Shown: positions 28,187 to 45,230 of the stretch, piece after piece
Layout: every line of letters starts with the position of its first letter
Position numbering within the stretch: position 1 is the stretch's first letter
NCBI GenBank assembly: GCA_012521185.1
Contig: JAAYMV010000100.1
Coordinates: 1 to 45,380 of the forward strand
Reading direction: 5' to 3'
Length of the DNA stretch: 45,380 nt
Source of the DNA: Bacillota bacterium
Lineage (GTDB): Bacteria > Bacillota > Limnochordia > Darwinibacteriales > DTU012
The notes under the pieces: model-generated
What the model saw: only the letters and a program-made list of their open reading frames with translations
Databases searched by the model: none
Told to the model about the DNA's origin: nothing
Position numbers and translations under genes: made by a program

Positions 28187-30410
28187 CGAACCAACTCCTG
28201 AACAAATTGCAGAAGAGAAGATTTATCGTCAAATGGCTGTTTCTGATGATGAATTTGCTTTGATTCAAAAATTGTTAGGTCGTTTACCAAATTATACCGA
28301 GTTAGGTCTTTTCAGTGTAATGTGGTCTGAACATTGTAGTTATAAGAATTCTAAACCAGTGATTAAAAAGTTTCCAACAACTGGACCACAAGTTCTACAA
28401 GGTCCAGGTGAAGGTGCTGGCATTGTTGATATTGGTGATGGTTTAGGGATTGCTTTTAAGATCGAGTCTCATAACCATCCATCAGCAGTAGAACCTTATC
28501 AAGGGGCTGCAACTGGTGTTGGTGGAATTCTCCGAGATGTGTTCTCTATGGGTGCTCGACCTATTGCCCTCCTAAATTCCTTACGTTTTGGCGAATTAGC
28601 TAATGATCGGATGAAATATTTATTTAAAGGCGTAGTTGCTGGGATTGCTGGCTATGGCAATCGGATGGGTATCCCAACGGTCGGTGGTGAAATCTATTTT
28701 GATTCTAGTTATGAAGGAAATCCACTGGTTAATGCGATGTGCGTCGGTTTAATTCGTCATGATCAAATCCAGCGTGGAATTGCTAAAGGTGTTGGCAATT
28801 CAGTTGTTTATGTAGGCGCCGCTACAGGCAGAGATGGTATTCATGGTGCTACATTTGCATCTGTGGAGTTTGGCGACGAAGCTGCAGTTGAACTACCTGC
28901 CGTACAAGCAGGTGATCCTTTTGTTGAAAAATTACTAATGGAAGCATGTTTAGAGTTAATTGAAAAAGATGTCTTATTAGGTATTCAAGATATGGGTGCT
29001 GCAGGGTTAACCTCCTCTAGTGCTGAGATGGCTAGCAAAGCTGGAAATGGTATTGAACTTAATTTAGACTTAGTCCCCCAAAGAGATCCAAATATGTCTG
29101 CTTATGAAATGATGTTATCCGAATCTCAGGAGCGAATGTTATTAGTTGTAGAAAAAGGTCGTGAACAGGAAGTAGAAGCAATTTGCCAAAAATGGGGTTT
29201 AACTGCGGTAACCATCGGTCGGGTAACAGACGATGGTCGCATGCGCTTGTTGCATAAAGGACAAGTTGTAGCCGATGTGCCTGTTGATTACTTGGCAGAA
29301 GAAGCTCCTGTTTATCATCAACCTTCTAGGGAGCCGGCTAGTTTCCGTGAGAATCAGGCTAAACTTGTAGAAGATTTATCTATTAACAATGGAACTGAAA
29401 CTTTAAAGCAATTGCTAGCTATGCCAAGTATTGCTAGTAAAGAGTGGGTTTTCCAACAGTTTGATTATTTGTCTGGTAACAATACCATTGTTAGACCAGG
29501 CTCTGATGCTGCTATTATTCGTATTCCTGAAACAAATAAAGCTATCGGAATTACCACTGACTGTAATGCTGGATATATTTACTTAGATCCATACACAGGT
29601 GGTGCTATTGCAGTTGCGGAAGCTGCTCGTAATTTAGTTTGTTCTGGTGCTAAACCGTTAGCGATTACCGATGGTTTAAATTTTGGCAGTCCCGAAAATC
29701 CAGAAGTTTTTTGGCAAATTGAACAAGCTGCTATTGGGATTAGCGAGGCTTGCTTAAAATTTGGGACGCCAGTGGTTTCAGGTAATGTTAGTCTTTACAA
29801 TGAAACTAATGGAAACGCTATTTACCCGACACCGATTATTGGTATGGTTGGTGTAATTGAAAAACTTGATCATATTACTACTCAACATGTTAAAACAGCT
29901 GGAGATGTTGTGGTGTTATTAGGTAGAACTGTACCTGGTTTAGGCGGCAGTCAGTTACAAAAGCTAATCGATGGAGAAATCAGTGGCAAACTGCCTGATT
30001 TTGATCTAGCATATGAAGCACGGGTTCAAAAACTTGTTTTAGCTGCTATTCAGCAAGGTTTGCTTGCATCAGCTCACGATCTTTCCGAAGGAGGTCTGGC
30101 AGTAGCTTTAGCTGAGATAGTAATGGAAACGCCCTTTGGATTGGAGCTTAATTTGAACAGCAGTCTACCAACAAGTGTAATCTTGTTTGGCGAAGCTCAG
30201 TCCAGGGTTGTAGTAAGCCTAAACGAAGAAAAATTAGCTGCTTTAAAGCAATTAGCAGCAACTTATGATGTAGAATTAGCTGTTATAGGTCAAGTAAATA
30301 ATAGTGGTAACTATATTTTGCGTTTAAATGGTGAAGAAATTATTGCAACATCTGTGGTTGAACTAGAAAAAACATGGAAGGGTGCAATCCCATGCATGAT
30401 CAACGATTAG
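28173..30410 (+). CDS. purL: Phosphoribosylformylglycinamidine synthase, small-type PurL
   Basis: This 745-residue small PurL works with PurS and PurQ to convert FGAR, ATP and an ammonia donor to FGAM. Visible motifs are [18 protein letters not shown] near residue 50, the ATP/FGAR segment [46 protein letters not shown] in the middle and [17 protein letters not shown] near the C-terminus. No sign of decay is seen, unlike purQ. PurL enzymes can use free ammonia in vitro, which may explain how the pathway runs here. The ATG at 28173 lies inside the purQ end with GGAGGGAT before it. Confidence 0.97.
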
Positions 30411-31807
30411 TTGATGACAAGTTTACTGAGGAATGTGGGGTTTTCGGTATTTTTGGTCATCCTCAGGCTGTCGAAATGGCTTATTATGGGTTACATGCCT
30501 TACAGCATCGTGGTCAAGAAAGTTGTGGTATTGCAGCAACTGATGGACAAGAGTTTACTGTTCACAAAGGCTTAGGTTTAGTTACTGATGTATTCACTAC
30601 AGATAGATTAAATAAACTACAAGGGGATCGGATTGTTGGGCATGTGCGTCACACCACCGCCTGGGACAATAAAATCACTGATGCCCAGCCTTTGGTTTTT
30701 AAATATCGGGCTGGTACTTTTGCTCTTGCCCATAACGGAAATTTGGTCAATGCATCGCAAATCAGACGTTATTTAGAGCGCCAAGGTTCGATCTTTCAAA
30801 CTGAAAGCGATACAGAAGTAATTGCTCATTTAATGGCTCGCTCTGCTTATGATCAAATTGATTTAGCGTTAAAAGAGGCTTTAAGTATGATCAAGGGAGC
30901 CTATGCTATTATTGTCTTAACAGAGAATCAAATGATTGCGGCTTTAGATCCGAATGGTTTACGTCCCTTTGTCTTAGGTAAGGTAGATGGTGCTTATTGC
31001 TTAGCCTCGGAAACTTGTGCTTTTGATGTGATTGGAGCTGAGTATATTCGCGATGTTCAACCGGGTGAATTAATCGTTATTGATCAAGATGGACTTCAGA
31101 CTGGCCAATTTACACGGACAGCTCATCAAACCTTGTGCAGTTTCGAGTTTATTTATTTTGCTCGTCCGGATAGTAATATAAATGGCATTAATGTTCATCA
31201 AAGCCGCAAGTTGTTAGGAGAGAAGTTAGCAAAAGAGCATCCTGTTGATGCTGATGTGGTTATGGGTGTACCTGATTCAAGTATTTCAGCAGCAATGGGT
31301 TATGCTCAGGCTACTGGTTTGCCTTACGAAGTTGGTTTGATTAAGAATCGTTATGTTGGCCGAACCTTTATCAAACCCTCCCAGCGAATTCGTTACGAGG
31401 GTGTGCGGATGAAACTAAGTGTTGTGCGGAAAGTAGTAGAAGGGAAACGAATTGTAATTATAGATGATTCCATCGTTCGAGGTACCACCATTAGCAGAAT
31501 TGTGAGAATGTTAAAGGATGCTGGTGCTAAAGAAATTCATGTCCGGATTAGTTCTCCGCCAGTAGCTCATCCTTGTTATTACGGAATTGACAGCTCTGAT
31601 AGGGAGGAATTGATTGTAGCCCATAAAACATTAGCTGAGGTTTGTGAATACATTGGAGCTGATTCATTAGAGTTCTTGAGTGTCGAGGGATTGAGAGAGG
31701 CTTTACTGCAAGAACATGGGGTGAATGGTCTGTGCTTAGCTTGTTTTACAGGCCAATATCCAACTGAAATATATCCAAATGAAAATGGAGTTGGCAAAAA
31801 TGGGTGA
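30392..31807 (+). CDS. purF: Amidophosphoribosyltransferase
   Basis: This 471-residue enzyme catalyses the first committed step of purine synthesis. The propeptide ends EE before CGVFGIFG, so processing would expose the catalytic Cys15. The glutaminase domain has HGNLVN and RHTTAWD. The PRPP-binding loop is [12 protein letters not shown]. Cys residues placed like the Bacillus 4Fe-4S ligands are visible ([27 protein letters not shown]), so it is the iron-sulfur type. The ATG at 30392 is chosen over 30374 because GGAAGGG lies 9 bases before it. It overlaps purL by 19 bases. Its intact glutaminase contrasts with PurQ. Confidence 0.97.
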
Positions 31808-32837
31808 CGCGTATAAAAAGGCAGGAGTTAATATTGAAGCTGGTTATCAAGCGGTAAAAGAGATTAAAGCCCATGTGGCTAGGGCTACTCGTCCAGAAGT
31901 GATGAGTAGCCTAGGCGGTTTTGCTGCTTTGTTTAAATTGCCAATTGAACAGTATCGTAAACCAGTTTTAGTATCAGGTACTGATGGGGTAGGTACAAAA
32001 TTAAAGATCGCTTTTGAGTTGAATCAGCATCATACTATTGGGATTGACTTAGTTGCGATGTGCGCTAACGATATTTTAGTAATCGGTGCTGAGCCATTGT
32101 TCTTTCTTGATTATTTAGCTACCAGTAAAATTGAGCCATCCAAAGTAGGACAAATTGTAGCTGGCATTGCTGAAGGTTGTGTTCAGGCAGGCTGTGCTTT
32201 AATCGGCGGTGAGACTGCAGAAATGCCTGGGTTTTATCAAGCTGGAGAATATGACTTAGCAGGTTTTTGTGTGGGTATAGTAGAGCAGGATCAGATTATT
32301 GATGGTAGTACTATTGAGCCAGGCGATGTAATTCTAGGTTTACCGAGTAGCGGTTTACATAGTAATGGGTTTTCCTTGGTACGGAAATTATTAGTGGGTA
32401 ATGATAAATTTGACTTAAATGCAATATTTGACCAAGGAAAAACTCTTGGTGAAATATTACTAACTCCTACAAGAATATATGTTAATGCCCTTAAGGGTTT
32501 AATTAAACAATTACCGCCTGCAGGCATGGCTCACATTACTGGAGGTTCCTTTATTGAAAACATTCCCCGAGTATTACCTGGCAGTTGTAATGCTGAAATT
32601 GAATTAGGTAGTTGGCCAGTGCCTGCTATTTTCCGGTTATTAGCTGAGGAAGGTCAGTTAACCCATAGTGATCTTTATAATACGTTTAATATGGGTATTG
32701 GAATGGTATTAGTGGTCAAAGATGATTTATTAGAAGCGACCTTAAAACATTTTGAGCAACTAGGTGAACCAGTGTATCAAATTGGTAAGGTTACTGCTGG
32801 AAAGCAACAGGTTATTTTTAAGGAGGCTAATCAATGA
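31800..32837 (+). CDS. purM: Phosphoribosylformylglycinamidine cyclo-ligase (AIR synthetase)
   Basis: This 345-residue PurM begins [19 protein letters not shown], the usual start, followed by VSGTDGVGTKLKIAF and the ATP-binding DLVAMCANDILVIGAEPLFFLDYLA segment, and GGETAEMPGFY near residue 138. It closes the imidazole ring of AIR. The ATG at 31800 is chosen by homology to known starts and by GGAG 9 bases upstream; two earlier in-frame ATGs lie within the purF end. It overlaps purF by 8 bases and shares ATGA with purN. Confidence 0.96.
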   Translation: MGDAYKKAGVNIEAGYQAVKEIKAHVARATRPEVMSSLGGFAALFKLPIEQYRKPVLVSGTDGVGTKLKIAFELNQHHTIGIDLVAMCANDILVIGAEPLFFLDYLATSKIEPSKVGQIVAGIAEGCVQAGCALIGGETAEMPGFYQAGEYDLAGFCVGIVEQDQIIDGSTIEPGDVILGLPSSGLHSNGFSLVRKLLVGNDKFDLNAIFDQGKTLGEILLTPTRIYVNALKGLIKQLPPAGMAHITGGSFIENIPRVLPGSCNAEIELGSWPVPAIFRLLAEEGQLTHSDLYNTFNMGIGMVLVVKDDLLEATLKHFEQLGEPVYQIGKVTAGKQQVIFKEANQ

Positions 32838-33445
32838 AAAGAATAGCCGTCTTTGCTTCTGGCAGTGGGTCAAACTATCAAGCAATTATGGAGTTTTTTG
32901 CTGAACATGCAAAGATCCAAGTAGCATTGTTGGTCTGTGACCAGCCACAAGCTAAGGTGATCGATCGAGCTAAACACTGGCAAACTCCAACTTTGATGGT
33001 TAGTCCGAAGGATTTCCCTTCGAAAGCTAGTTATGAGCGTCATATTTTAAGTTTTTTGGAAGAATATCAGATTGATTTTCTAGTTTTAGCTGGTTATATG
33101 CGTCTGATAGGACCAATTCTGTTAGAACCTTATAGTGGTCGGATTATCAATATCCATCCTTCTTTATTACCAGCTTTTCCCGGAAAGGATGCTATAGGAC
33201 AAGCATTAGCTTATGGTGTCAAAGTAACAGGTGTTACAATTCATTTTGTTGATGAAGGTATGGATACAGGTCCAATTATAGTGCAAAAAGCAGTTGAAGT
33301 CAGTACAGATGACGATCTGCTCAGTTTAAGTAGTAAAATTCAACAAATAGAGCATGCACTTTATCCGCCTACGGTAGAAGACTGTGTGTTAGGGAAAGTT
33401 TATCTTCAAGGACGAAAGGTATGTTATCGGGAGGGTACTTCATGA
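32834..33445 (+). CDS. purN: Phosphoribosylglycinamide formyltransferase
   Basis: This 203-residue GART uses 10-formyl-THF to formylate GAR. Signatures are FASGSGSNYQAI at the N-terminus, LAGYMRLIG and the catalytic region RIINIHPSLLPAFPG with its Asn-x-His, followed by GVTIHFVDEGMDTGPII with the catalytic Asp. Folate dependence links it to the riboswitch-controlled folate uptake gene elsewhere in the window. Its ATG overlaps the purM stop (ATGA), and TAAGGAGG lies upstream. Confidence 0.96.
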   Translation: MKRIAVFASGSGSNYQAIMEFFAEHAKIQVALLVCDQPQAKVIDRAKHWQTPTLMVSPKDFPSKASYERHILSFLEEYQIDFLVLAGYMRLIGPILLEPYSGRIINIHPSLLPAFPGKDAIGQALAYGVKVTGVTIHFVDEGMDTGPIIVQKAVEVSTDDDLLSLSSKIQQIEHALYPPTVEDCVLGKVYLQGRKVCYREGTS

Positions 33446-34710
33446 AAATCTTAGTTGTTGGTAGTGGTGGTAGAGAACACGCCTTGTGTTGGAAACTCAA
33501 GCAAAGCCCTCAGGTTGAAAAAGTCTATTGTGCTCCAGGAAATGGGGGAACTAGATTAGTAGCTGAAAATGTACCAATTTCTGAAAAACAGATTTCAGAA
33601 TTAGTTAAATTTGTCCAGCAAGAACAAATCGATTTAACTGTTGTGGGTCCAGAAGAACCTTTAGCCCATGGTATTGTTGATCAATTTAGAGCACAAGGCT
33701 TGAAAATTTTTGGCCCAACTAAAGCGGCAGCTATCATTGAGGGAAGTAAAGCCTTTGCCAAAGATTTAATGGCAAAATATAAGATTCCAACTGCTGATTA
33801 TCGTGTTTTTTCTAACGCTAAAGAAGCCTTAGCTTATCTTAATGAGATAGGTGTTCCAATTGTAATTAAGGCTGATGGTTTGGCTGCAGGTAAAGGAGTT
33901 GTTGTTGCTTTTAATATGGATGATGCAGTTGCTGCTGTTAACCAAGTTTTTAGTAGCGGTACTCACCAAAAGGTAGTTATCGAAGAATATTTAGAAGGTG
34001 AAGAACTGTCCTTGATGGCCTTTGTAGACGGTGAGACAGTCATTCCGATGCCGTTAGCTCAGGATCATAAGCAAGCTTTTGATGGAGATTTAGGTCCGAA
34101 TACAGGAGGTATGGGTGCCTATTCTCCAGTACCTCACTTTAGTCAAGCTTTTATTGACCAGGCTGTTGAGCAAGTGCTTAAACCAACAGCGAAAGCCATG
34201 CTTGCAGAAAATCGAGCTTTTACCGGAGTTTTATATGCCGGTTTAATGATAACTGAAAAAGGTTTAAAAGTAATTGAGTTCAATGCTCGTTTTGGTGACC
34301 CAGAAACTCAGGTGATTCTGCCGCGTTTGGCTGGTGATTTAGTAGATATTTTATTAGCTTGTGTGAATCATCAGTTGGATCAAATTGAGATAAACTGGAA
34401 TGAACAAGCAGCTTTAACTGTAGTTTTAGCTTCACCAGGATATCCTGGTCCCTATCCAACCGGTAATGAAATTACGGGCTTAGAAGCATTAGCCAAGTTT
34501 GATGATCTTGAAGTTTTTCACGCCGGCACAGTTTATGACGGTAATTGTATAAAAACAGCTGGTGGACGTGTACTGGCTGTAACTGGATTAGCTGATAGTT
34601 TAGAACAAGCCCAAAACCGAGCTTATCAGGGGATTCATCACCTGAACTTTTATGGTATGCATTATCGATCAGATATTGGCAATAAAGCAATCAATCAGCG
34701 TATCTCGTAA
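33442..34710 (+). CDS. purD: Phosphoribosylamine-glycine ligase
   Basis: This 422-residue ATP-grasp enzyme has KILVVGSGGREHALCWKL at the start, GPEEPLAHGIVD near residue 73, the ATP-grasp segment VIKADGLAAGKGVVVA, and the metal site VIEFNARFGDPETQVILPRL. It makes GAR from phosphoribosylamine and glycine. The ATG at 33442 overlaps the purN stop and follows GGGAGGG. It is the last gene of the operon. purH, which usually sits between purN and purD, is absent, and the stop codon is the loop of the operon terminator. Confidence 0.97.
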   Translation: MKILVVGSGGREHALCWKLKQSPQVEKVYCAPGNGGTRLVAENVPISEKQISELVKFVQQEQIDLTVVGPEEPLAHGIVDQFRAQGLKIFGPTKAAAIIEGSKAFAKDLMAKYKIPTADYRVFSNAKEALAYLNEIGVPIVIKADGLAAGKGVVVAFNMDDAVAAVNQVFSSGTHQKVVIEEYLEGEELSLMAFVDGETVIPMPLAQDHKQAFDGDLGPNTGGMGAYSPVPHFSQAFIDQAVEQVLKPTAKAMLAENRAFTGVLYAGLMITEKGLKVIEFNARFGDPETQVILPRLAGDLVDILLACVNHQLDQIEINWNEQAALTVVLASPGYPGPYPTGNEITGLEALAKFDDLEVFHAGTVYDGNCIKTAGGRVLAVTGLADSLEQAQNRAYQGIHHLNFYGMHYRSDIGNKAINQRIS

Positions 34711-34726
34711 GAGATATGCTTTTTTT
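34697..34726 (+). terminator. Terminator of the purine operon, overlapping the purD stop codon
   Basis: AGCGTATCTC (34697-34706) pairs with GAGATATGCT (34711-34720), with one G-T pair, around GTAA. A T-run lies at 34720-34726. The purD TAA is within the loop, so the last purD codons form the 5' stem. Confidence 0.85.
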
Positions 34727-34802
34727 ATACTTTTGGGAGCAGGAAACTTTTACAAGATCGGGTAATATAGTATTGAAGCCTTTATGTGATGGAGGTGTGA
34801 CC

Positions 34803-37280
34803 ATGCAAAAACTTAGAAGACAATTTCTTCAGCCAGCGGATGAATACACACCAATTCCTTTTTGGTTTTGGAATGATCGGCTAACTGAGGATGAAATAAT
34901 TCGACAAATTCATGATTTCAAAGCTAAAGGAGTAATGGGATTCATTATTCATCCTAGAATAGGGATCCCAAAAGAGATAGAATATTTATCTGATCGGTTT
35001 ATGGAGCTGGTTACTTGTGCAGTCGAGGAAGCGAAAAGGCTAGGTATGAAAGTAATTCTTTATGATGAGGCAATGTATCCATCAGGATCTGCTCATGGAC
35101 AAGTTGTCGCGACCAATCCTCGTTTTGCAAGTCGTGGTTTATTAATGAAAGAATACCCAGTTAGTGATAGAAAAATTGAATTGGTACCTGAGTTCGATGA
35201 TCCAGATGACTTACTTGTGTCTGTGCAGGCAGTAAAAAAAATAAGTGAAAATTCGATTGATGCCAGTTCGACAATGAAGTTAGCTTGTGAGCAAGGAAAA
35301 GTAGTTTTTGCTGCTCCTGACCAGGAACAATGGTCTGTACTAATGTTTATTGAAACTTATTCTCGTGGAACTATTCGAGGGATTCATTTTGGTGAAGATG
35401 ATGGTCAGCCTGATGCTCCGGCAGCTGCTGATCTACTAAATCCTCAAGCCATGAAGACTTATATTAATTTAACCCATGACCGTTATTATGAAGTGTTAAA
35501 AGATTATTTTGGTAATACAATTATAGCCATGTTTACTGATGAACCTGCTATTCTAGGTCGTCGTTCTCGTCGTGGATTACGACCTTGGACTACAAATTTT
35601 CTCCAAGATTATATTAGTTTTGGCTGTGATGAATTAGACCTCCCGGTTCTGTGGTTTGATGCTGGTGAAGTTACCGCTGTAAAACGCAAGCAGTATAAGC
35701 AGGCGATTAATAAAAGATTACTTCGTTCGTACTATATCCCTATTTCTAAATGGTGTGAAGAGCATGGCATTGCTTTAACAGGTCATCCAGAGGCTAGTGA
35801 CGAAATCGGGTTGTTAAATTATTTTCAAATTCCTGGTCAAGATGTGGTTTGGCGCTGGGTAGCTCCAGAGGATGAAAAAGGAATCACTGGCGTTCATAGT
35901 ACCCAAGGAAAATGTTCTGCTGATGCGGCTAGGCATTCTGGGAAACGGCGTAATTCAAATGAGTGTTTTGGCTGTTGTGGTCCTAATGGTGTCCATTGGG
36001 CATTTACTGTTGCAGATATGAAGTGGTACATGGATTGGTTATTTGTTCGTGGAGTGAATTTGCTTTATCCTCATGCATTTTTTTATTCGATTGAAGGTAA
36101 AGGCCGGTTTGATGAGCGTCCGCCTGATGTTGGACCAAACAATATTTGGTGGCCTCATTATCGGATTATTTCTGATTACATTAAACGGATGAGCTGGTTG
36201 ATGACAGACAGCGTTAACCAAGCTCAAGTAGCAGTTCTCTGTGAGGAAGATCATCTACCATGGCAAATTGTTCGTCCATTATTTGAACACCAAATTGAAT
36301 TTAACTATTTAGAGAACAAATTATTAGAATCTAGTGTAGAAGTTGACGGAGGAACACTCAAAATTTGTCAACAAAGCTATCGGGTTTTAGTAATCGAAGA
36401 TCTTAACCATTTAACGTCCAAAGCTCAAACTAAAGTGGAGCAGTTTATTGCAGAAGGTGGAACAGTGATTGTTTACAATCCAGCACAGTTAAGAATTAAC
36501 TTGCCAGTTAGTGAAATAACTATTTTTTCAGAGCTGGTGGAGAAAATCCGGCAAGTACTAGAACCCGATTTATTTGTTTCCGAAATCGCAACTGATTTAC
36601 GCCTTTCTCATGTGATTAAGGATGGTGTGCATTTTTTCCTGTTAGTTAATGAAGGAATGCAAGCAATTAAACGCAAAATTCGATTAAATGTGATTGGTAA
36701 AACTGAGGCGTGGGATGCTTGGAATGGAACAATTACTGAATTGCCTGTTTTCGCAGTCGATCAGCAAAGAATGGAATTAGAGCTCGACTTGCCTGTTCGC
36801 GGAAATCTGATTATTATGGTTGATCCAAATCAACCTTATCAATTGTTTAAGCAGAATCAGCAAGTACAATTAATACAAAAGGTGATTGATTTATCCAGTA
36901 ATTGGCGATCAACTAATCCATTGTTAGATTCCCAGTTGCACAAGGGGTTAATCTGTTGGACAACAATTCCTGAATTAGCAGATTTCTCTGGTAAGATTAT
37001 TTACGAAAATAATTTTGTTATCAATGATTTTGCTGAAATTGTTAAGGTGGAAATAGATTTTGGTGAAGTCCATGAGATAGCAGAGCTAACAGTTAATCAG
37101 CAAGCAGCTGGAGTAAGGTTGTTAGCACCTTATTCATTTGAAATCACTAATCTTGTTAAACCCGGGATTAACCAGATTCAACTTCAGGTAACTAATACTT
37201 TAGCAAATCGTCTTGTTCAGGCAAAGATTAAGTCAGGTTTGCTTGGTAAAGTACAATTGAAGATTAGTTACAAACCATAA
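34803..37280 (+). CDS. Putative glycoside hydrolase, GH106-like
   Basis: This protein has 825 residues and no signal peptide, so it is cytosolic. The N-terminal segment PIPFWFWNDRLTEDEIIRQI, then KGVMGFIIHPRIG and KRLGMKVILYDEAMYPSG, is the pattern of large glycosidases related to the rhamnosidase family GH106. FTDEPAI near residue 245 and GHPEASDEIG near 325 carry candidate catalytic carboxylates. A carbohydrate-binding beta domain appears to occupy the last about 150 residues (HEIAELTVNQQAAGVRLLAPYSFEI). Substrate specificity is not predictable; rhamnose or other deoxyhexose linkages are possible. GGAGGTG precedes the ATG at 34803. It opens a carbohydrate island with GH1 and GH43-like genes. 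Confidence 0.75.
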   Translation: MQKLRRQFLQPADEYTPIPFWFWNDRLTEDEIIRQIHDFKAKGVMGFIIHPRIGIPKEIEYLSDRFMELVTCAVEEAKRLGMKVILYDEAMYPSGSAHGQVVATNPRFASRGLLMKEYPVSDRKIELVPEFDDPDDLLVSVQAVKKISENSIDASSTMKLACEQGKVVFAAPDQEQWSVLMFIETYSRGTIRGIHFGEDDGQPDAPAAADLLNPQAMKTYINLTHDRYYEVLKDYFGNTIIAMFTDEPAILGRRSRRGLRPWTTNFLQDYISFGCDELDLPVLWFDAGEVTAVKRKQYKQAINKRLLRSYYIPISKWCEEHGIALTGHPEASDEIGLLNYFQIPGQDVVWRWVAPEDEKGITGVHSTQGKCSADAARHSGKRRNSNECFGCCGPNGVHWAFTVADMKWYMDWLFVRGVNLLYPHAFFYSIEGKGRFDERPPDVGPNNIWWPHYRIISDYIKRMSWLMTDSVNQAQVAVLCEEDHLPWQIVRPLFEHQIEFNYLENKLLESSVEVDGGTLKICQQSYRVLVIEDLNHLTSKAQTKVEQFIAEGGTVIVYNPAQLRINLPVSEITIFSELVEKIRQVLEPDLFVSEIATDLRLSHVIKDGVHFFLLVNEGMQAIKRKIRLNVIGKTEAWDAWNGTITELPVFAVDQQRMELELDLPVRGNLIIMVDPNQPYQLFKQNQQVQLIQKVIDLSSNWRSTNPLLDSQLHKGLICWTTIPELADFSGKIIYENNFVINDFAEIVKVEIDFGEVHEIAELTVNQQAAGVRLLAPYSFEITNLVKPGINQIQLQVTNTLANRLVQAKIKSGLLGKVQLKISYKP

Positions 37281-37292
37281 GGGGCTGTTGGT

Positions 37293-38012
37293 ATGGCGTA
37301 CCAAAATTCACGACGTTTTTTAAATGCTTTTGTAGAGATTGAGGGAGCTTTAAAGACCATTAGTAAAAATACACGTAATCGTCCTTTCTATCAATTAGTT
37401 GCTGATGCAGCTAATTATGATCCTTTTGTTCGAGATATTGCTGTGGAATTAAGGGAATACGGTGATTTACGTAATGCTATTGTCCATGAACGGATCAACG
37501 ATGAACCAATTGCTGAGCCACATGATCAGGTAGTAGAGCGCTTAGAAGCGATTCGTGATTTATTAACTACACCGCCGCGAGTAACACCATTATTTTTGCG
37601 GAAAGTAGTAACCTGTGAGTGTGATGAAGCTTTAAGTACGGTAGCTAAGCGAATGTTTGAGCATTCATTTTCTAAAATTCCAGTTTATCGTGGTCGAGAA
37701 TTCGTTGGTTTATTAACAGCAGAAGCAATTACCTATTGGTTAGCAGATCGGATTTCAGATCAAGGATTCTTAGTAGAAGAAAAAGTAGAAGTGGTTCTAA
37801 ATTACTTGGATAAACCCGATAACTATCGATTTGTTACTCAGGACTGCTCTTTATTTGATATTATTCGCTTATTTGATGAATTTCATCATAATGGTACTCG
37901 TTTACAGGCCGTATTGATAAGTGATGATGGAACAGAAAGTGGTCAGCTGCTTGGAATTATAACAGCTTTTGATTTGCCAAGGATTTATCGGTTGATTAGA
38001 GGTAAGCAATAG
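37293..38012 (+). CDS. HEPN-like domain fused to a CBS pair
   Basis: This protein has 239 residues. The N-terminal about 90 residues are all-helical and contain LRNAIVHER: Arg60-x4-His65 fits the R-x(4-6)-H motif of HEPN RNases. Residues 100-235 hold two CBS motifs: VVTCECDEALSTVAKRMFEHSFSKIPVYRGREFVGLLTAEAI and a second from NYRFVTQDCSLFDI to LLGIITAFDLPR. CBS pairs bind adenine nucleotides or related ligands. A ligand-gated RNA-binding or RNase role is an inference. It starts 12 bases after the glycosidase stop, with AGGGG before the ATG, so it is cotranscribed with it although no functional link is evident. Confidence 0.8.
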   Translation: MAYQNSRRFLNAFVEIEGALKTISKNTRNRPFYQLVADAANYDPFVRDIAVELREYGDLRNAIVHERINDEPIAEPHDQVVERLEAIRDLLTTPPRVTPLFLRKVVTCECDEALSTVAKRMFEHSFSKIPVYRGREFVGLLTAEAITYWLADRISDQGFLVEEKVEVVLNYLDKPDNYRFVTQDCSLFDIIRLFDEFHHNGTRLQAVLISDDGTESGQLLGIITAFDLPRIYRLIRGKQ

Positions 38013-38056
38013 AAAAAATGGCTTTCTCCAGTTAGTACTGGAAAAAGCCATTTTTT
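38013..38056. terminator. Bidirectional terminator between convergent genes
   Basis: A 20-bp stem with one mismatch (38013-38032 with 38037-38056), loop TAGT, has A-tract and T-tract ends. It begins right after the CBS gene and reaches the stop codon of the GH1 gene. Confidence 0.92.
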
Positions 38057-39386
38057 ATTTTTGCGTAGTTAGGAATTCTCTATACCATTTTGCACTGTCT
38101 TTTAGGTATCGCGTTTGAGTTTCATAATCAACGTAAACGATACCAAAACGATAATCATAGCCGTAAGCCCATTCAAAATTGTCCATTAATGACCAAACAT
38201 AAAAGCCTTTTAAAGGAACACCGGCTTCAATCGCCCGATGGCATTGAACAAAGTGGTCTTGTAAATATTTCGTGCGTTGATGATCATGCACTTCACCCTC
38301 GACAAGCTGGTCGTCAAAGCAAGCGCCATTCTCCGTTATAAATAAAGGCAAATCTCCATAAGTTTTGTTGAGATAAACTAGCAAATCATAAATTCCCTCT
38401 GGATAAATTTCCCAGCCCATTCTGGTTTTTTCATAGACACTTGGATAACTTTTATAGTTAAAGATCGAGTCTGGATTACCGGCTCCAAGAATTCTTCGAT
38501 GGTAGTAATTAATTCCTAAAAAATCTATAGCAGTGCTGATAACATCTAAATCTTTAGCTTCCATTTCTGGTGCTAGATTGTGTTTTTTATAGATTTGGAA
38601 AATCTCTTCTGGGTAGGCTCCTTTTAAAACAGGATCTAGATACCATCCAACGTCTGCAGCAAAGCCACGTTGAGCAGCAGCTACATCCTCAGGACTATCG
38701 GAAGCTGGATACTTCGGTGACATGTTTAAAGTAATACCAATTTGTCCATTACCTGTTACAGAACGAAAAGCTTCTACTGCTAAGCCATGGGCATATAACA
38801 AATAATGAGCAGCTTGAATTGCTTGTTTTGGATCTTTAATCCCTGGGGCGTGCTGTCCGTTACCATAACCCATTTGAGCCGAACACCAAGGTTCATTTAA
38901 AGTTATCCAGTAGGGGACTACGTCACCGAACTCTTGAAACATGATTGCGGCATAGTCTTGAAAACATTTCGCTGTATCTCGATTTGTCCAGCCACCTTTA
39001 TCTTGTAAAACTTGCGGCAAATCCCAGTGATATAAAGTAGCACAGGGAATTAGATCGTTTTCTAACAGTTCATTAACTAAGCGTTTGTAGAAATCGAGGC
39101 CTTTAGGATTTAGTTTGCCAAAACCATTTGGAAAAATTCGTGGCCAAGCTATCGAAAAACGATAGGAATCTACTCCTAGGTTTTTAATCATAGCCACGTC
39201 TTCTTGATATCGATTATAATGATCGCAAGCTACGTCACCAGTATCGCCATTGAGGATTTTCCCATGTGTTTTGCTAAATCGATCCCAGATAGATTCACCG
39301 CGCCCGTCTTGATTATAGGCACCTTCAATTTGATAAGCTGCAGTAGCTACTCCCCAAATAAAATCTTTTGGAAACTGTAAATTCAT
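38055..39386 (-). CDS. bglA: GH1 beta-glucosidase / 6-phospho-beta-glucosidase-type enzyme
   Basis: This 443-residue GH1 enzyme starts with FPKDFIWGVATAAYQIEGA, has the acid/base Glu165 in TLNEPWC and the nucleophile Glu352 in ITENGAC, and contains DNFEWAYGYDYRFGIVYVDYETQ near the end. Length is typical for clostridial BglA-type beta-glucosidases. No signal peptide is present, so it acts on imported beta-glucosides. No PTS gene is nearby, which argues mildly for unphosphorylated substrates. GGAGG precedes the ATG. It lies downstream of the AraC-type regulator gene in the same direction and is likely part of the same sugar response. Confidence 0.95.
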   Translation of the reverse strand: MNLQFPKDFIWGVATAAYQIEGAYNQDGRGESIWDRFSKTHGKILNGDTGDVACDHYNRYQEDVAMIKNLGVDSYRFSIAWPRIFPNGFGKLNPKGLDFYKRLVNELLENDLIPCATLYHWDLPQVLQDKGGWTNRDTAKCFQDYAAIMFQEFGDVVPYWITLNEPWCSAQMGYGNGQHAPGIKDPKQAIQAAHYLLYAHGLAVEAFRSVTGNGQIGITLNMSPKYPASDSPEDVAAAQRGFAADVGWYLDPVLKGAYPEEIFQIYKKHNLAPEMEAKDLDVISTAIDFLGINYYHRRILGAGNPDSIFNYKSYPSVYEKTRMGWEIYPEGIYDLLVYLNKTYGDLPLFITENGACFDDQLVEGEVHDHQRTKYLQDHFVQCHRAIEAGVPLKGFYVWSLMDNFEWAYGYDYRFGIVYVDYETQTRYLKDSAKWYREFLTTQK

Positions 39387-39479
39387 CTTCGCAATTCCTC
39401 CACTGATAATTGTATATAATGAAGATACCAGTCTGAGCTGGGAAATCCTTCAACTTAAAAAAAATAAAAAAGGGTAACA

Positions 39480-39496
39480 CTAGATCGTGAATCTAG
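39480..39496 (-). terminator. Weak hairpin at the end of the AraC gene
   Basis: CTAGAT and ATCTAG form a 6-bp stem around five bases, overlapping the stop codon. In the leftward transcript a long T-rich stretch follows about 10 bases later. It is not a canonical terminator. Confidence 0.35.
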
Positions 39497-40313
39497 CTTT
39501 TCGATATTCACGGGGAGTAGTACCAGTAATTCGTTTAAACATTCTGCCAAAATATGTTTGGTTTTCATAACCGACCAGGCCAGAAATCTCGGTAATCGAT
39601 AGATCAGTTTTTTCTAATAATTGCTGGGCTTCTTTAATTCGGATATTATTGAGATATTCAATTAGAGTTAATCCAGTAACTTCCTTGAACATGCGGCATA
39701 AGTAAAATTGACTAATATAGAATTGCTCCGCTATTTCTGCAAGACAGATTGGCTTTTGATAGTTGTGTCGGATGTAGCGGACAATTTTGTGGATTTTATC
39801 GTGAATTGGATTCAGTGGATCAAAGTTAGCGCCATCTCCGATTGGTGAAATTCTGGAGGTGTGGACTAGTAGCTGAATTAAAAGGGATTTCAAGTATATT
39901 TCAGAATCTTCTTTAGGGTTTTTGTACTCAGCAACCATTTTTGCTAGAATTGTTTCAATCGTATTTTGTTCTGCTACCTTTAGACGTAGTGCTTTGCTTT
40001 CCCGGTAAAAGCAAGTCATTATTGATTGCTTATTGTTATTTGGAGCTAGCCCTGCTAAAAAACTGTCATTAAAGTATAATACTGTTCGCTCATGGTTGTC
40101 GTTATTCGCAGCTGTTGTTCGGTGGAGTACTTTTTTGGGTATGAAAATAATATCGCCAGGATTTACATGATAAATCCGATCATCAATGAAATAGTAGCGT
40201 TCGCCAGATTGAAGATAGTATATTTCGTGCAACTCATGACTATGCTTATTGTCCATATTAAAAGGTGCACTTTTTCGATATTCTATATGAAACTTATAGT
40301 TTGTTAAGCTCAT
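39480..40313 (-). CDS. AraC family transcriptional regulator with cupin sensor
   Basis: This protein has 277 residues. The N-terminal cupin half has HSHELHEIYYLQSGERYYFIDDRIYHVNPGDIIFIPKKVLH (about residues 24-64), a sugar-sensing fold in this family. The C-terminal double helix-turn-helix reads ISQFYLCRMFKEVTGLTLIEYLNNIRIKEAQQLL and then ISGLVGYENQTYFGRMFKRITGTTPREYRK. It probably activates the neighbouring glycosidase and oxidoreductase genes in response to a sugar. AGGGGG precedes the ATG, and a good promoter lies upstream, divergent from the Gfo/Idh gene. Confidence 0.94.
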   Translation of the reverse strand: MSLTNYKFHIEYRKSAPFNMDNKHSHELHEIYYLQSGERYYFIDDRIYHVNPGDIIFIPKKVLHRTTAANNDNHERTVLYFNDSFLAGLAPNNNKQSIMTCFYRESKALRLKVAEQNTIETILAKMVAEYKNPKEDSEIYLKSLLIQLLVHTSRISPIGDGANFDPLNPIHDKIHKIVRYIRHNYQKPICLAEIAEQFYISQFYLCRMFKEVTGLTLIEYLNNIRIKEAQQLLEKTDLSITEISGLVGYENQTYFGRMFKRITGTTPREYRKARFTI

Positions 40314-40333
40314 AGTGTTTCCCCCTGGTATTG

Positions 40334-40361
40334 ATTATAACATTGTTTGGTTAAATAGCAA
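40334..40361 (-). promoter_or_regulatory. Promoter of the AraC regulator gene
   Basis: On the minus strand TTGCTA (40361-40356) is followed after 16 bases by a perfect TATAAT (40339-40334) with a TG extension. Confidence 0.65.
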
Positions 40362-40396
40362 GATAGGTTGAATTCATGATTAATTGAGCAATAAAC

Positions 40397-40426
40397 TTAT
40401 AGCCTTTTTAAATTTTTTGCTATAGA
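40397..40426 (+). promoter_or_regulatory. Candidate promoter of the Gfo/Idh gene
   Basis: An extended -10 TGCTATAGA lies 18 bases after a weak TTATAG. A weak -35 is typical of a promoter that needs an activator such as the divergent AraC protein. Confidence 0.45.
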
Positions 40427-40459
40427 ATGTAGACATCAGCCTGGAGGAGGTTTTATCTA

Positions 40460-41746
40460 ATGAAGAAAAAGTATGTGCTAGTTGGAACAGGAGGCCGAGC
40501 TCGCTTTTTCTATGAGGCATTGGTCAGCACTTATAAAGAAACTAGTCAGCTCGTTGCTTTTTGTGATATTAACCAAACTAGAATGAATTATGCAGTCAAC
40601 TATTTAAAAGAAAAATATGAGGACTGCCCACCAATTAATACGTATTTAGCTCATGAATTTGACGAAATGATTGAGAAAGAAAAGCCAGACGCAGTAATTG
40701 TGACAACTATCGACAGAACACATCACAAGTATATTATCCGTGCTATGGAATTAGGCTGTGATGCAATTACAGAAAAACCAATGACCATCGACGAGGTTAA
40801 ATGTCAAGAGATTCTTGATGCAGTGAAAAGAACTGGCAGAAACTTACGAGTAACCTTCAACTATCGTTACTCTCCATATAATACTAAAATTCGTGAGTTA
40901 ATTATGAATGACACTATTGGTCAAGTTAACTCCGTTCATTTTGAATGGTTATTAGATACACGTCATGGTGCAGACTACTTTAGAAGATGGCATCGTGATA
41001 AACGTAATAGTGGTGGATTATTAGTTCATAAATCAACTCACCACTTTGATTTAGTTAATTTCTGGCTAGGAACTCAACCAAAAACAGTATTTGCTTTTGG
41101 TGATTTAATGTTCTACGGTCGAGAAAATGCTGAAAATCGTGGCATGACAAACTTCTATTATCGTGGTACAGGTTCGGAACATGCTAAAAATGACCCGTTT
41201 GCACTTGATCTATCTAAGAACGAACAATTGAAGGGTTTATATTTAGATGCAGAGCATGAAGATGGTTATTTAAGAGACCAAAGCGTATTTGGTGATGGTA
41301 TCAGTATCGAGGACACTCTAGGCGTATTAGTTCGCTATAAAAACAATGCGATTCTAACTTATTCATTAAATGCTTACATGCCATGGGAAGGTTATCGCAT
41401 TGCCTTTAACGGTACTAAAGGTCGTATCCAAGTTAATGTTGGTGAAAAGACTTATATTAACGCTGGTGGAGATGCTGCACAAGAAGGTGCGGTGCGGATG
41501 AAACAAATAGTTGTTCATCGAATCGGTGAAGAACCATACGAAGTACATGTAGAAGAAGCTCCAGGTGGACATGGTGGCGGGGATCCACGTCTTTTAGACG
41601 ATATCTTTGGTAATCCTGAGCCAGACCCATTCAACCGAGCTGCATCTCACATTGATGGTGCAATGAGTATCTTAACCGGTGTTGCCGGAAACATTTCCTT
41701 ACGTACTGGTATGCCAGTCAACGTTGATGATTTAGTTAAGTTTTAA
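40460..41746 (+). CDS. Gfo/Idh/MocA family oxidoreductase
   Basis: This 428-residue NAD(P)-dependent dehydrogenase family protein has the N-terminal Rossmann fold KYVLVGTGGRARFFYEAL, the family EKP motif (ITEKPMT, Lys about 112) that holds the catalytic Lys, and a C-terminal substrate domain with HKSTHHFDLVNFWLG containing candidate catalytic His residues. Such enzymes oxidise or epimerise sugars, inositols or amino sugars; the substrate here is unknown. CTGGAGGAGG lies upstream of the ATG. It is divergent from the AraC regulator, with a terminator before the GH43-like gene, so it may be strongly expressed alone with limited read-through. Confidence 0.92.
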   Translation: MKKKYVLVGTGGRARFFYEALVSTYKETSQLVAFCDINQTRMNYAVNYLKEKYEDCPPINTYLAHEFDEMIEKEKPDAVIVTTIDRTHHKYIIRAMELGCDAITEKPMTIDEVKCQEILDAVKRTGRNLRVTFNYRYSPYNTKIRELIMNDTIGQVNSVHFEWLLDTRHGADYFRRWHRDKRNSGGLLVHKSTHHFDLVNFWLGTQPKTVFAFGDLMFYGRENAENRGMTNFYYRGTGSEHAKNDPFALDLSKNEQLKGLYLDAEHEDGYLRDQSVFGDGISIEDTLGVLVRYKNNAILTYSLNAYMPWEGYRIAFNGTKGRIQVNVGEKTYINAGGDAAQEGAVRMKQIVVHRIGEEPYEVHVEEAPGGHGGGDPRLLDDIFGNPEPDPFNRAASHIDGAMSILTGVAGNISLRTGMPVNVDDLVKF

Positions 41747-41761
41747 TGGTAGTAGTTTTGC

Positions 41762-41796
41762 AAGCTATTGGCTAATATCTAGTCAATAGCTTTTTT
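41762..41796 (+). terminator. Intrinsic terminator
   Basis: AAGCTATTG (41762-41770) pairs with CAATAGCTT (41784-41792), and TTTTTT follows. Confidence 0.85.
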
Positions 41797-41844
41797 AATG
41801 TACCTATGATAGACTAGAAAATAATGCCTGGAGGGGAAAAAAAC

Positions 41845-42738
41845 TTGAAAAAAAGTGAAATCCAAATGCGCGATCCTTTTGTTTTGCCAGTAGAAGAAGA
41901 AGGACTTTATTATTTGTTCGGTACGACGGATAAAGACTGTTGGCGTGGTCCAGCAGTTGGTTTCGATGTCTATGTTAGTAAAGACCTAGAAGATTGGGAA
42001 GGTCCTTATCCGGCATTTCGACCGGCCACGGATTTTTGGTCTGATCAAAATTACTGGGCACCTGAAGTTTTTGCTTATCAAGGCAAGTATTATATGTTTG
42101 CCAGTTTTAAGGCTGCGGGTGTTTGTCGTGGAACTCAAATTTTGGTAGCAGATCATCCCAAAGGGCCTTTTGTACCTCATAGTGATGGACCAGTTACACC
42201 AAGAGATTGGGAATGTTTAGATGGGACTTTATATGTTGATCCTGAGGGAAATCCATGGATGGTATTTTGTCATGAGTGGGTGCAAATTGTTGATGGCGAA
42301 ATTCATGCCTTGCCTTTAAGTAAAGACTTAAAAGAAGCCGCTGGTAAACCGCATTTCTTGTTCAAGGCTTCGGAAGCTCCTTGGGCAAGAGCCTTTAAAC
42401 GAAATTTTAACGGAGTAGAAAAAGACGGCTATGTAACTGATGGACCATTCTTATACCGGACAAAATCTAATGCGTTATTAATGTTATGGTCTAGTAAAGG
42501 AGACCAAGGTTATACTATGGGTATTGCTCGAAGTGAAACGGGGAACATTCTTGGTCCTTGGATTCAAGAGCCAGAACCAATCTATGGTAAAGATGGCGGA
42601 CATGGTATGTTTTTTAAAACCTTTGATGGTAGATTAATGATGACCATCCACACCCCAAACCAAACCCCTAATGAACGCCCTATTTTTATTGAAGTTGTAG
42701 AAAAGAATAATCAGCTCACAATCAAAGAACAGCCATAA
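41845..42738 (+). CDS. Glycoside hydrolase family 43-like protein
   Basis: This 297-residue protein is a five-bladed beta-propeller of the GH43 type. The catalytic-base Asp10 is in MRDPFVLP, NYWAPEVFAYQGKYYMF is the classic blade motif, and LDGTLYVD holds the pKa-modulating Asp126. The acid position, usually Glu in EGP, reads TDGPFLY (Asp199). GGHGMFF places a His253. It has no signal peptide, so it would act on imported oligosaccharides such as arabino- or xylo-oligomers. The TTG at 41845 is taken as start because TGGAGGGG ends 8 bases before it; the ATG at 41824 has no ribosome binding site. Confidence 0.82.
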   Translation: MKKSEIQMRDPFVLPVEEEGLYYLFGTTDKDCWRGPAVGFDVYVSKDLEDWEGPYPAFRPATDFWSDQNYWAPEVFAYQGKYYMFASFKAAGVCRGTQILVADHPKGPFVPHSDGPVTPRDWECLDGTLYVDPEGNPWMVFCHEWVQIVDGEIHALPLSKDLKEAAGKPHFLFKASEAPWARAFKRNFNGVEKDGYVTDGPFLYRTKSNALLMLWSSKGDQGYTMGIARSETGNILGPWIQEPEPIYGKDGGHGMFFKTFDGRLMMTIHTPNQTPNERPIFIEVVEKNNQLTIKEQP

Positions 42739-42751
42739 AAGGAGGCAAATT

Positions 42752-43480
42752 ATGAAAGATTATCTGCGTAATTCAGCAATAATGGCTTTCGGATGGCTTG
42801 CTTTTTTGGTTATGATGGTGATTAGTGGAATGATTAGCGAAACTTATAGATTTCTGGTTTTGCTTGTTATACCTGGAGGTTTTTTAGTTGTAACAGGGCT
42901 GCTGTTTACTTACTTAGCGCTTAAATATCCCCGAGGTTATGCTGTCACTATCTGGCCTATATTAGGCTTGGTATTTCTTGATCAGGGAATAAAATTGTTA
43001 GTTTATTTCATAGGAGTTGAGCAGCTTAACCTTCAGATTATTCCCGATTTGATCTATCTTCAACCCCAGTATAACACTTATGGTTCCTATCTAGGTTCTT
43101 TATTAGGTATGGAAATTAGTAATCTGAGTTATATTGTTTTATATATCGTTTTTGCGTTTTTCATTATTGAAGGGTACCATTTTTATCTCAGCCGAAATGA
43201 GAAAAACTTCTGGACTAGCTCGTTTTATTTATCGTTAGTAGCTGGAATTTGTGCTTCAAGCCTGGACAAGCTTCTATGGGGCAAGACATTAGATACCTTA
43301 TACATTAAACCACTGTTTGTTTGTGACATAAAAGACTTTTACATTACTTATGCTTTATTTTTCTTAGGTGCAGAAATAATTCGGCAAGGATATCTAGCAA
43401 GCAAAACTACCTTAAAAGAAGATTGGCTGCTTTTGAAAGAGTTTTTTCACTTTATTGGCAGACGCCGGTGTCAAAGGTAG
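42752..43480 (+). CDS. Divergent signal peptidase II (LspA)-like membrane protein
   Basis: This 242-residue integral membrane protein is not annotated easily by eye, but its second half follows LspA landmarks in order. These are FLDQGIK (Asp77, Lys81) for the LDQ-x-SK helix, YNTYGSYLG (Asn108, Gly111) for the NxGAAF loop, and SSLDKLLWGKTLDTLY (Asp172) for the GNxxDR motif. VCDIKDFYITYALFFLGA (Asp195) matches the FNxAD motif. Both catalytic Asp positions are retained, but flanking residues differ and two extra N-terminal membrane segments (about residues 8-57) are present. It may be a specialised protease or a repurposed paralogue. GGAGG precedes the ATG, 13 bases after the GH43-like gene. Confidence 0.65.
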   Translation: MKDYLRNSAIMAFGWLAFLVMMVISGMISETYRFLVLLVIPGGFLVVTGLLFTYLALKYPRGYAVTIWPILGLVFLDQGIKLLVYFIGVEQLNLQIIPDLIYLQPQYNTYGSYLGSLLGMEISNLSYIVLYIVFAFFIIEGYHFYLSRNEKNFWTSSFYLSLVAGICASSLDKLLWGKTLDTLYIKPLFVCDIKDFYITYALFFLGAEIIRQGYLASKTTLKEDWLLLKEFFHFIGRRRCQR

Positions 43481-43506: not shown

Positions 43507-43565
43507 AAAAGTTACTAGATAATAGTAGGCAGAGAAGGATATTGGAAGGATGTGGCTATAAGGAC

Positions 43566-45230
43566 ATGACAGAACGTGAACCTATGAATTTTATCGATAG
43601 AATAGTAGCTAATGATTTAGCGACAGGTAAAGTAACAAAAGTACACACCAGGTTCCCACCAGAACCAAATGGTTTTTTGCATATTGGTAGTGCTTATGCC
43701 ATTAATATAAGTTATTCCATTGCTAAAAAATACAATGGAAAATTTAATTTGCGTTTTGATGACACCAACCCTTTAAAGGAAGATATTAGTTATGTAAATG
43801 CGATTATTGAAGATATGAATTGGCTTGGTGTTAAGTATGAAGGACCTTATTACGGTTCTGATTATAATGAGCAAATTTACGAATATGCTGTCTACTTAAT
43901 TAAAAAGGGACTAGCTTATGTATGCGATTTAAGCCCAGATGAAATCCGCGAATATCGAGGGACTTTAACTGAACCAGGAAAAAATAGTCCATATCGGGAT
44001 CGTTCTGTTGAAGAAAACTTAGAATTATTCGAGCGGATGCGGGCAGGTGAGTTTGAAGAAGGGGAAAAAGTTCTTCGAGCAAAAATTGACATGGCTAGCC
44101 CTAACATTGTGATGCGTGATCCAGTAATTTTTAGAATTATTAAAGCGGAGCATTATCGGACAGGTAATCAATGGTGTATTTATCCAATGTACGACTTTGC
44201 TCATCCAATTCAAGACTATATTGAAGGTATTACTCATTCCTTATGTTCGAATGAGTTTGTTAATAACCGTCCTTTATATGAATGGACTTTAGAAAACTTA
44301 GATTTACCTAATCCACTACCACAACAAATTGAGTTTGGTCGGTTAAATATTACCGGTGTAGTTACCAGTAAGCGCTATTTAAAACAATTGGTTGACAGTG
44401 GTGTTCTAGAGGGTTGGGATGACCCACGTTTGCCCACTATTCAAGGTATGCGAAGAAGAGGATACACTCAAGATGCTATCTTTGCCTTTCTCAATGAAAT
44501 TGGTGTGCCAAAAGCTGAAAGTACAGTTGATGTAGAAATGTTAGAGCATTTTGTGCGGCAAGATTTAAATGAAAAGGCAACTTGCGTAATGGCTGTTTTA
44601 GATCCGCTAAAAGTAGTAATTACAAACTGGGATGAAGATCATGTTGAGTATGTAGATGCAGACAATAGTTATACTAATCCGAATCTTGGCAGCCGTAAAG
44701 TACCTTTAACACGGGAAATTTATATCGAACGAGAAGATTTTATGGAAAATCCGCCAAAGAAATATAACCGATTGGTTCTAGGAGGCGAGGTTAGATTACG
44801 GCATGGTTACTTCATTAAATGTAACGAAGTGATCAAAGATGAACAAGGCAATATTATAGAATTACACTGTACCTATGATCCAGAAACCAAGAGTGGTTCT
44901 GGTTTTACTGGCCGTAAGGTAAAAGGAACTATTCATTGGGTAAGTGCTAGTCATGGTTTGCCTTGCACCGTACGACTTTATGAATCATTATTTAATGAAC
45001 AGCCAACTGAAGAAAACCTATTAGAATCGATTAATCCTAATTCTAAGGTGGTATTAAATTCCATTGTTGAACCAAGTATTTTGGATTTTGTAAAAGATGG
45101 AGTAACCCATTTTCAATTCTTAAGAAATGGTTATTTCGTGTGGGATAATAAGTTAGCCGCTTTAGATAATTTAGTGTTTAACCGCATTGTAACTTTGAGG
45201 AGTTCGTACCGACATCCTAATAAAGGGTAA
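43566..45230 (+). CDS. glnS: Glutaminyl-tRNA synthetase
   Basis: This class Ib aminoacyl-tRNA synthetase has 554 residues. The HIGH motif lies in RFPPEPNGFLHIGSA, followed by FNLRFDDTNPLKED; DFAHPIQDYIEGITHSLCSNEF is GlnRS-typical, the KMSKS equivalent is VVTSKRYL, and the C-terminal anticodon-binding beta barrels include VEYVDADNSYTNPNLGSRKVPLTREIYIE. It charges tRNA-Gln directly, whereas many Bacillota use GluRS plus GatCAB. The ATG at 43566 gives the usual N-terminus; AAGGA is close upstream. A TTG start at 43542 with AGAAGGA is also possible and would add eight residues. A strong terminator follows. Confidence 0.96.
   Translation: MTEREPMNFIDRIVANDLATGKVTKVHTRFPPEPNGFLHIGSAYAINISYSIAKKYNGKFNLRFDDTNPLKEDISYVNAIIEDMNWLGVKYEGPYYGSDYNEQIYEYAVYLIKKGLAYVCDLSPDEIREYRGTLTEPGKNSPYRDRSVEENLELFERMRAGEFEEGEKVLRAKIDMASPNIVMRDPVIFRIIKAEHYRTGNQWCIYPMYDFAHPIQDYIEGITHSLCSNEFVNNRPLYEWTLENLDLPNPLPQQIEFGRLNITGVVTSKRYLKQLVDSGVLEGWDDPRLPTIQGMRRRGYTQDAIFAFLNEIGVPKAESTVDVEMLEHFVRQDLNEKATCVMAVLDPLKVVITNWDEDHVEYVDADNSYTNPNLGSRKVPLTREIYIEREDFMENPPKKYNRLVLGGEVRLRHGYFIKCNEVIKDEQGNIIELHCTYDPETKSGSGFTGRKVKGTIHWVSASHGLPCTVRLYESLFNEQPTEENLLESINPNSKVVLNSIVEPSILDFVKDGVTHFQFLRNGYFVWDNKLAALDNLVFNRIVTLRSSYRHPNKG

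Follow-up and report, generated by a model that had tools for sequence, protein, structure and literature searches.

The window analyzed here, a stretch of 45,380 nucleotides from a Bacillota bacterium, carries a gene (positions 42752 to 43480, + strand) whose product resembles the lipoprotein signal peptidase LspA and has lost conserved asparagines of its motifs. This raises the question of whether it encodes a working type II signal peptidase, a paralogue with another substrate, or a relative that no longer cuts. The reading frame given in the earlier note stands (242 aa, ATG start), and a Shine-Dalgarno-like AGGAGG can be read 6 bases 5′ of the ATG (42740 to 42745, + strand). On the strength of the ORF, its match to Pfam PF01252 and its match to the LspA fold, we describe it as a DxKD-type LspA-like (Peptidase_A8) gene, named for the signature D192-x-K194-D195.

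The genes around it say little about its role. A GH43 gene ends at 42738, its stop 13 bases ahead of the ATG, so that co-transcription with the DxKD gene is possible; the upstream genes are for purine synthesis, GH106, a CBS-domain protein, GH1, an AraC regulator, a MocA oxidoreductase and GH43, and a class I glutamyl/glutaminyl-tRNA synthetase gene lies downstream. A scan of 11 neighboring proteins (28173 to 42735 and 43542 to 45230, leaving out the ORF at 32834 to 33445) indicated no dedicated substrate or partner. Across lineages we found no conserved operon partner and no conserved linkage of the DxKD gene to lipoprotein genes. A PADLOC search for anti-phage defence gave no match, and a phage, plasmid or viral origin was rejected, with no match in the plasmids, phages and viral contigs searched. 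The G+C content of the gene is 35.5%, compared with 38.2% for the window, a difference that does not settle its origin.

Fold and residues of the window protein

The window protein is a member of Peptidase_A8 with the LspA fold, and we do not file it as canonical LspA. Pfam Peptidase_A8 matches residues 71–209 at 42.7 bits (E = 8.1e-11; curated cut-off, 25 bits). No NCBIfam lipoprotein signal peptidase model matches at E ≤ 0.01, and up to E 10 the protein matches a single, unrelated NCBIfam model (0.19). All 66 aligned DxKD relatives match Peptidase_A8 at E ≤ 0.01, and 57/66 also match TIGR00077 (NCBIfam) at that threshold. Used as a single sequence, the protein found no match among solved structures; a profile of its relatives matches LspA chains only (6ryo, 9.6e-15; 5dir, 6.6e-11; 9emz, 9.5e-11). 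An AlphaFold model made from 65 relatives, none of them canonical LspA, reaches a mean pLDDT of 86.5 and a pTM of 0.79, and predicts a core of helix 63–87, strands 94–108, helices 124–148 and 153–176, strands 179–191 and helix 193–212, followed by an extra C-terminal helix (221–241). VIA-align places solved LspA structures on top (6ryp, Z 14.2; 6ryo, 13.9; 5dir, 13.2; next match, 5.5) and Foldseek agrees (solved LspA at E 2.8e-6 to 9e-5; next, 1.8). Chance or artefact is ruled out by the Pfam score, the fold match and the existence of relatives.

Most of what had been read from the letters alone agrees with these alignments. The order of the four landmarks FLDQGIK, YNTYGSYLG, SSLDKLLWG and VCDIKDFYI is that of LspA, and alignment places them on its motifs. 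The roughly 60 extra N-terminal residues with two membrane segments correspond to an extension of about 62 residues (residues 1–62; 42752 to 42937, + strand) with predicted helices 2–24 and 31–58, seen in the AlphaFold model and the alignment, which aligns end to end with Clostridium members of about 250 aa. By alignment, box A (D77-Q78-x-x-K81; 42980 to 42994, + strand) retains Asp21 and Lys25 of Staphylococcus aureus LspA, and N108 (43073 to 43075, + strand) is its Asn52, kept in 66/66 DxKD members. The asparagines of GNxxDR and FNxAD are indeed gone: in the altered GNxxDR box (43256 to 43270, + strand), S169 replaces Asn106, D172 retains Asp109, and K173 stands for Arg110, while in the signature D192-x-K194-D195 (43325 to 43336, + strand) Asn133 has become Asp, Ala135 has become Lys, and the catalytic Asp136 is kept.

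The assignment of the catalytic pair needs correction. Mutational work in S. aureus LspA, as described in PMC6952399, shows the dyad to be Asp118/Asp136. Set against the alignments, this led us to drop the pair D172/D195 of the earlier note: D195 holds, D172 is the equivalent of Asp109, and the partner of D195 is D181 (43292 to 43294, + strand; Asp118, present in 66/66), all three aspartates being retained. Read from the alignment, the dyad of the window protein is D181/D195. Among the 14 highly conserved residues listed for S. aureus LspA in PMC6952399, seven are identical in the window protein (D21, K25, N52, G102, D109, D118 and D136); of the others, R110 is K, and G54, N106, V116, F132, N133 and A135 are altered. 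The same source gives 50% residual activity for R110K, and 3% for N133A and N133Q. All marks of the DxKD type are present (D192-x-K194-D195, S169, K173, N108 and D181; column string DQKNYSYGSDKTDCDIKDY), and the protein deviates from the usual DxKD type in Tyr for Trp113, Cys at 191 and Thr at 179.

A second copy in the window organism

The same genome carries a canonical lspA on another contig (C80; Peptidase_A8, 137.8 bits, 3–141 of 142), which makes the window gene a second copy and bears out, for this genome, the proposal of a paralogue distinct from the housekeeping enzyme. The two proteins are distant (25% identity over 145 columns, 30 bits), and the window protein shares 30% identity over its full length with a member from Clostridium tertium (103 bits). 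A first single-sequence scan of genome contigs for relatives gave no match. Within the order, 34/36 genomes match Peptidase_A8 (own genome included), and only the window organism has a second match over the cut-off; one other genome (G030) has a second match below it, at 18.6 bits. A protein search of the class (72 genomes) returned three weak matches beyond the gene itself (E 2.4e-6 to 4e-5), all of them ordinary lspA. In the phylum (398 genomes), 13 matches in 10 other genomes were found at E ≤ 1e-6, 12 of the DxKD type and one canonical (L046), and the nine genomes with DxKD matches also have a canonical copy, of which G344 shows only a 47-column piece, located where a contig ends.

Because the window gene stands alone in its order and class, its distribution suggests that it was gained by transfer. 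In a tree of 29 long-type proteins, the window protein groups with Clostridiaceae members (bootstrap 95, SH-aLRT 97) on a very long branch (1.86–3.37 changes per column over our trees), which meets another long one (L082), making its exact position unsure. As observations on mobility and duplication elsewhere, ten loci (L067–L076) in Sporofaciens, Hominisplanchenecus, Acetatifactor, Lachnospiraceae 3-1 and 3-2 and others encode one and the same DxKD-type protein next to a MobA/MobL relaxase gene (the relaxase was checked in L071 only), on which basis the DxKD gene seems to travel on a mobilizable element in gut Lachnospiraceae. Second Peptidase_A8 matches at 102–116 bits, canonical by score, are present in G283, G562, G608, G610, G614 and G651, so ordinary lspA duplications also occur.

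The DxKD clade and its place in Clostridiaceae

DxKD proteins differ from canonical LspA at a fixed set of positions. In S. aureus numbering, N133→D and A135→K (positions 192 and 194) separate the two completely, with D and K in 66/66 DxKD proteins and N and A in 31/31 canonical ones, while both sets share D at 181 and 195 and N at 108 throughout. Position 169 is S in 56/66 (canonical, N in 31/31), position 173 is K in 54/66 (canonical, R in 31/31) and position 179 is S in 54/66 (canonical, V in 31/31); positions 112–113 are mostly S-W in DxKD proteins and A-F in canonical ones. The 66-protein set leaves out two broken copies, with an interrupting stop codon, in Clostridium rectalis (L104, 4986 to 5297) and Thermoclostridium caenicola (L111, 4953 to 5537); both of these genomes have canonical lspA.

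Conservation of the motif has to be judged from sets gathered without it. Our scan of named genomes (71 loci) used a pattern that included the DxKD motif and left the other columns free, and those loci therefore cannot prove that the motif is conserved; the motif-free sets are the phylum protein-search matches and the loci from Pfam searches. A later set of 76 loci (from Pfam searches, with 16 from a DxKD profile; three without a match) gave 73 proteins, which fell into 54 DxKD and 19 canonical with no intermediate, at least 14 of the 54 being genes already in the earlier alignment; the catalytic Asp pair is present in 54/54. In trees built with the trait columns removed, all DxKD proteins lie on one side with SH-aLRT 100 (66 versus 31, and 65 versus 36 with wider canonical sampling), both trees being quick builds on few columns. 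Since the replacements are fixed across the clade, motif decay is ruled out for it. A shorter inter-Asp loop was also tried as a clade mark and discarded, the spacing being 14 in 120/120 DxKD rows and 13–18 in 49 readable canonical rows. We found no account of a DxKD subfamily in the literature searched, which mostly excludes subscription journals. A second Lsp has reportedly been discussed for Clostridioides difficile.

In many Clostridiaceae the DxKD protein is the only Peptidase_A8 member found. Among the 26 genomes behind the named loci, 17 also have a canonical match to Pfam Peptidase_A8 and nine have a low-scoring match only (Clostridium beijerinckii HUN142, C. tertium, C. puniceum, C. 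weizhouense, C. neonatale, C. paraputrificum, C. gallinarum, C. mediterraneense and SFB-turkey). In the genus of C. beijerinckii, 46/68 genomes match Peptidase_A8: 45 with only the low-scoring type over the cut-off and one (G526) with both, leaving 22 with none. Across the family, 179/206 genomes match, 63 with the low-scoring type only and 116 with a canonical copy (by best E-value). We read 50 of the 63 in sequence and all 50 are DxKD, the other 13 being assigned by score alone; the 16 low-scoring genomes outside the C. beijerinckii genus that were searched with the DxKD profile all match it near full length and all read as DxKD.

The searched sequence excluded some stretches of the Clostridiaceae genomes, and genomes with no match (22/68 in the C. 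beijerinckii genus, 27/206 in the family) are no evidence of loss. Searching the 27 with the DxKD profile still gave no match, and in one of them (G490) we found the LDH gene that flanks the locus, the expected DxKD site itself lying outside the sequence searched. Such stretches could hide a canonical lspA in single genomes, though hardly in 63, and at least two DxKD-only genomes (G502 and G484) are each essentially whole in one contig. Lgt is found in 66/68 genomes of the C. beijerinckii genus, including 45/45 with the low-scoring type only. Lipobox-like signal peptides, counted with a simple pattern in 400 kb of each genome, occur in 4/354 and 6/420 ORFs of two DxKD-only genomes (10/774) and in 11/410 and 5/405 ORFs of two canonical-only genomes (16/815); these counts are small and include some chance matches, and several clear lipoboxes are present in both groups.

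Some features of these genomes are recorded here in their own right. Lgt (PF01790) in the genus of G454 (68 genomes) often occurs in several copies, at about 243–270 and 188–211 bits. The DxKD gene in Clostridiaceae is often near a PF03618 kinase/pyrophosphorylase (PPDK regulator; L050–L064, L278–L284, L286 and L288). Recurrent antisense ORFs suggest that in Clostridium it adjoins ribosomal RNA operons, which would account for its appearance on contigs of 4–8 kb.

Possible functions and comparison with known systems

The DxKD proteins probably form an old, distinct subfamily of LspA-fold aspartyl proteases of the membrane, putative non-canonical type II signal peptidases, with a fast-evolving second isoform in the window organism. 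Their standing as the sole Peptidase_A8 in many Clostridiaceae, the retention of Lgt in the C. beijerinckii genus and the lipobox proteins of two genomes argue for a functional type II signal peptidase, though of another kind. Like LspA, DxKD members would cut prolipoproteins already lipidated on the Cys by Lgt. An Asp/Lys pair (D192/K194) by the dyad and Lys173 would between them do some of the positioning that falls to Asn133, Asn106 and Arg110 in canonical LspA, and the response of the pocket to globomycin may differ. In the window organism, the DxKD copy would be a second isoform acting on some lipoproteins only, or on lipoprotein-like substrates. Several facts weigh against this reading: the near inactivity of N133A/Q in S. 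aureus LspA (PMC6952399), the alteration of 7/14 conserved positions, the long branch, the Tyr in place of the usual Trp113, and the canonical LspA of the window organism, whose retention means that the DxKD copy may do something else. A bolder version, in which DxKD is a second, mechanistically distinct lipoprotein protease that uses Asp/Lys in place of two Asn regarded as strictly conserved, has replaced LspA in several Clostridiaceae genera and is by nature insensitive to globomycin-type inhibitors, we regard as tentative, with the odds somewhat against it.

A different substrate in the window organism is possible. A specialized protease with the same chemistry, acting on a single lipoprotein or on a membrane peptide that carries no lipid while canonical LspA does the general work, would fit the canonical lspA in the same genome, the uniqueness of the copy in its order and class, its very long branch and its altered substrate-pocket positions (Asn106, Arg110, Gly54 and Val116). 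However, changes at 106, 110, 133 and 135 are common to DxKD members that are sole copies and so are alone no mark of a new substrate, and the flanking GH43 and glutamyl/glutaminyl-tRNA synthetase genes offer no partner; we judge this explanation unlikely, if the strongest of the rivals. Loss of proteolysis, leaving an LspA fold that binds lipoproteins or lipid, would accord with the missing Asn133 and Asn106, with the activity data for N133A/Q (PMC6952399) and with a Lys beside the catalytic Asp. Yet both catalytic aspartates are retained in 66/66 members and in 54/54 of the later set, and 63 Clostridiaceae genomes would lack any type II signal peptidase while retaining Lgt wherever it was looked for. 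The non-proteolytic relative proposed in the earlier note loses ground, its motif changes being fixed throughout a large clade in which the catalytic pair, the box-A Lys and the box-B Asn are all retained; it appears less likely for DxKD proteins than a non-canonical type II signal peptidase, and we consider it improbable. Least probable of all is a self-resistance or antibiotic-tolerant LspA copy, as in globomycin and myxovirescin producers. Extra lspA copies are described in producer clusters (PMC8689077, PMC9943842) and the antibiotic-contacting residues differ in the window protein, but there is no globomycin- or myxovirescin-type cluster here, none of the 11 scanned neighbors being a peptide or polyketide synthase, and the producer copy GlobF, according to PMC9943842, keeps all 14 conserved residues, which DxKD proteins do not.

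Should DxKD proteins be working signal peptidases, the consequences would reach beyond this locus. LspA is an antibacterial target, and PMC9943842 describes the 14 residues as strictly conserved among 485 LspA proteins; a clade that departs from half of this set, and is the sole version in Clostridium species, would show another workable core. It offers a natural experiment on the pocket residues that the enzyme requires, and species resistant to LspA inhibitors would be predicted.

Among known systems, LspA itself (PF01252; 5dir, 6ryo, 6ryp) shares with the window protein the core fold, the Asp pair, the box A Lys, the box B Asn and the third conserved Asp; the window protein differs in N133→D, A135→K, N106→S and R110→K, in altered G54, V116 and F132, in two extra N-terminal helices and in matching no NCBIfam signal peptidase model. 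GlobF and the LspA3/LspA4 of Myxococcus, from globomycin and myxovirescin clusters, are likewise second Peptidase_A8 genes beside a housekeeping one, but GlobF retains the full residue set (PMC9943842) and no biosynthetic cluster surrounds the window gene. The low-scoring Pfam "Signal peptidase (SPase) II" proteins of Clostridium share both the DxKD motif and the architecture of about 250 aa; there they are the sole Peptidase_A8 found, whereas the window organism has both kinds.
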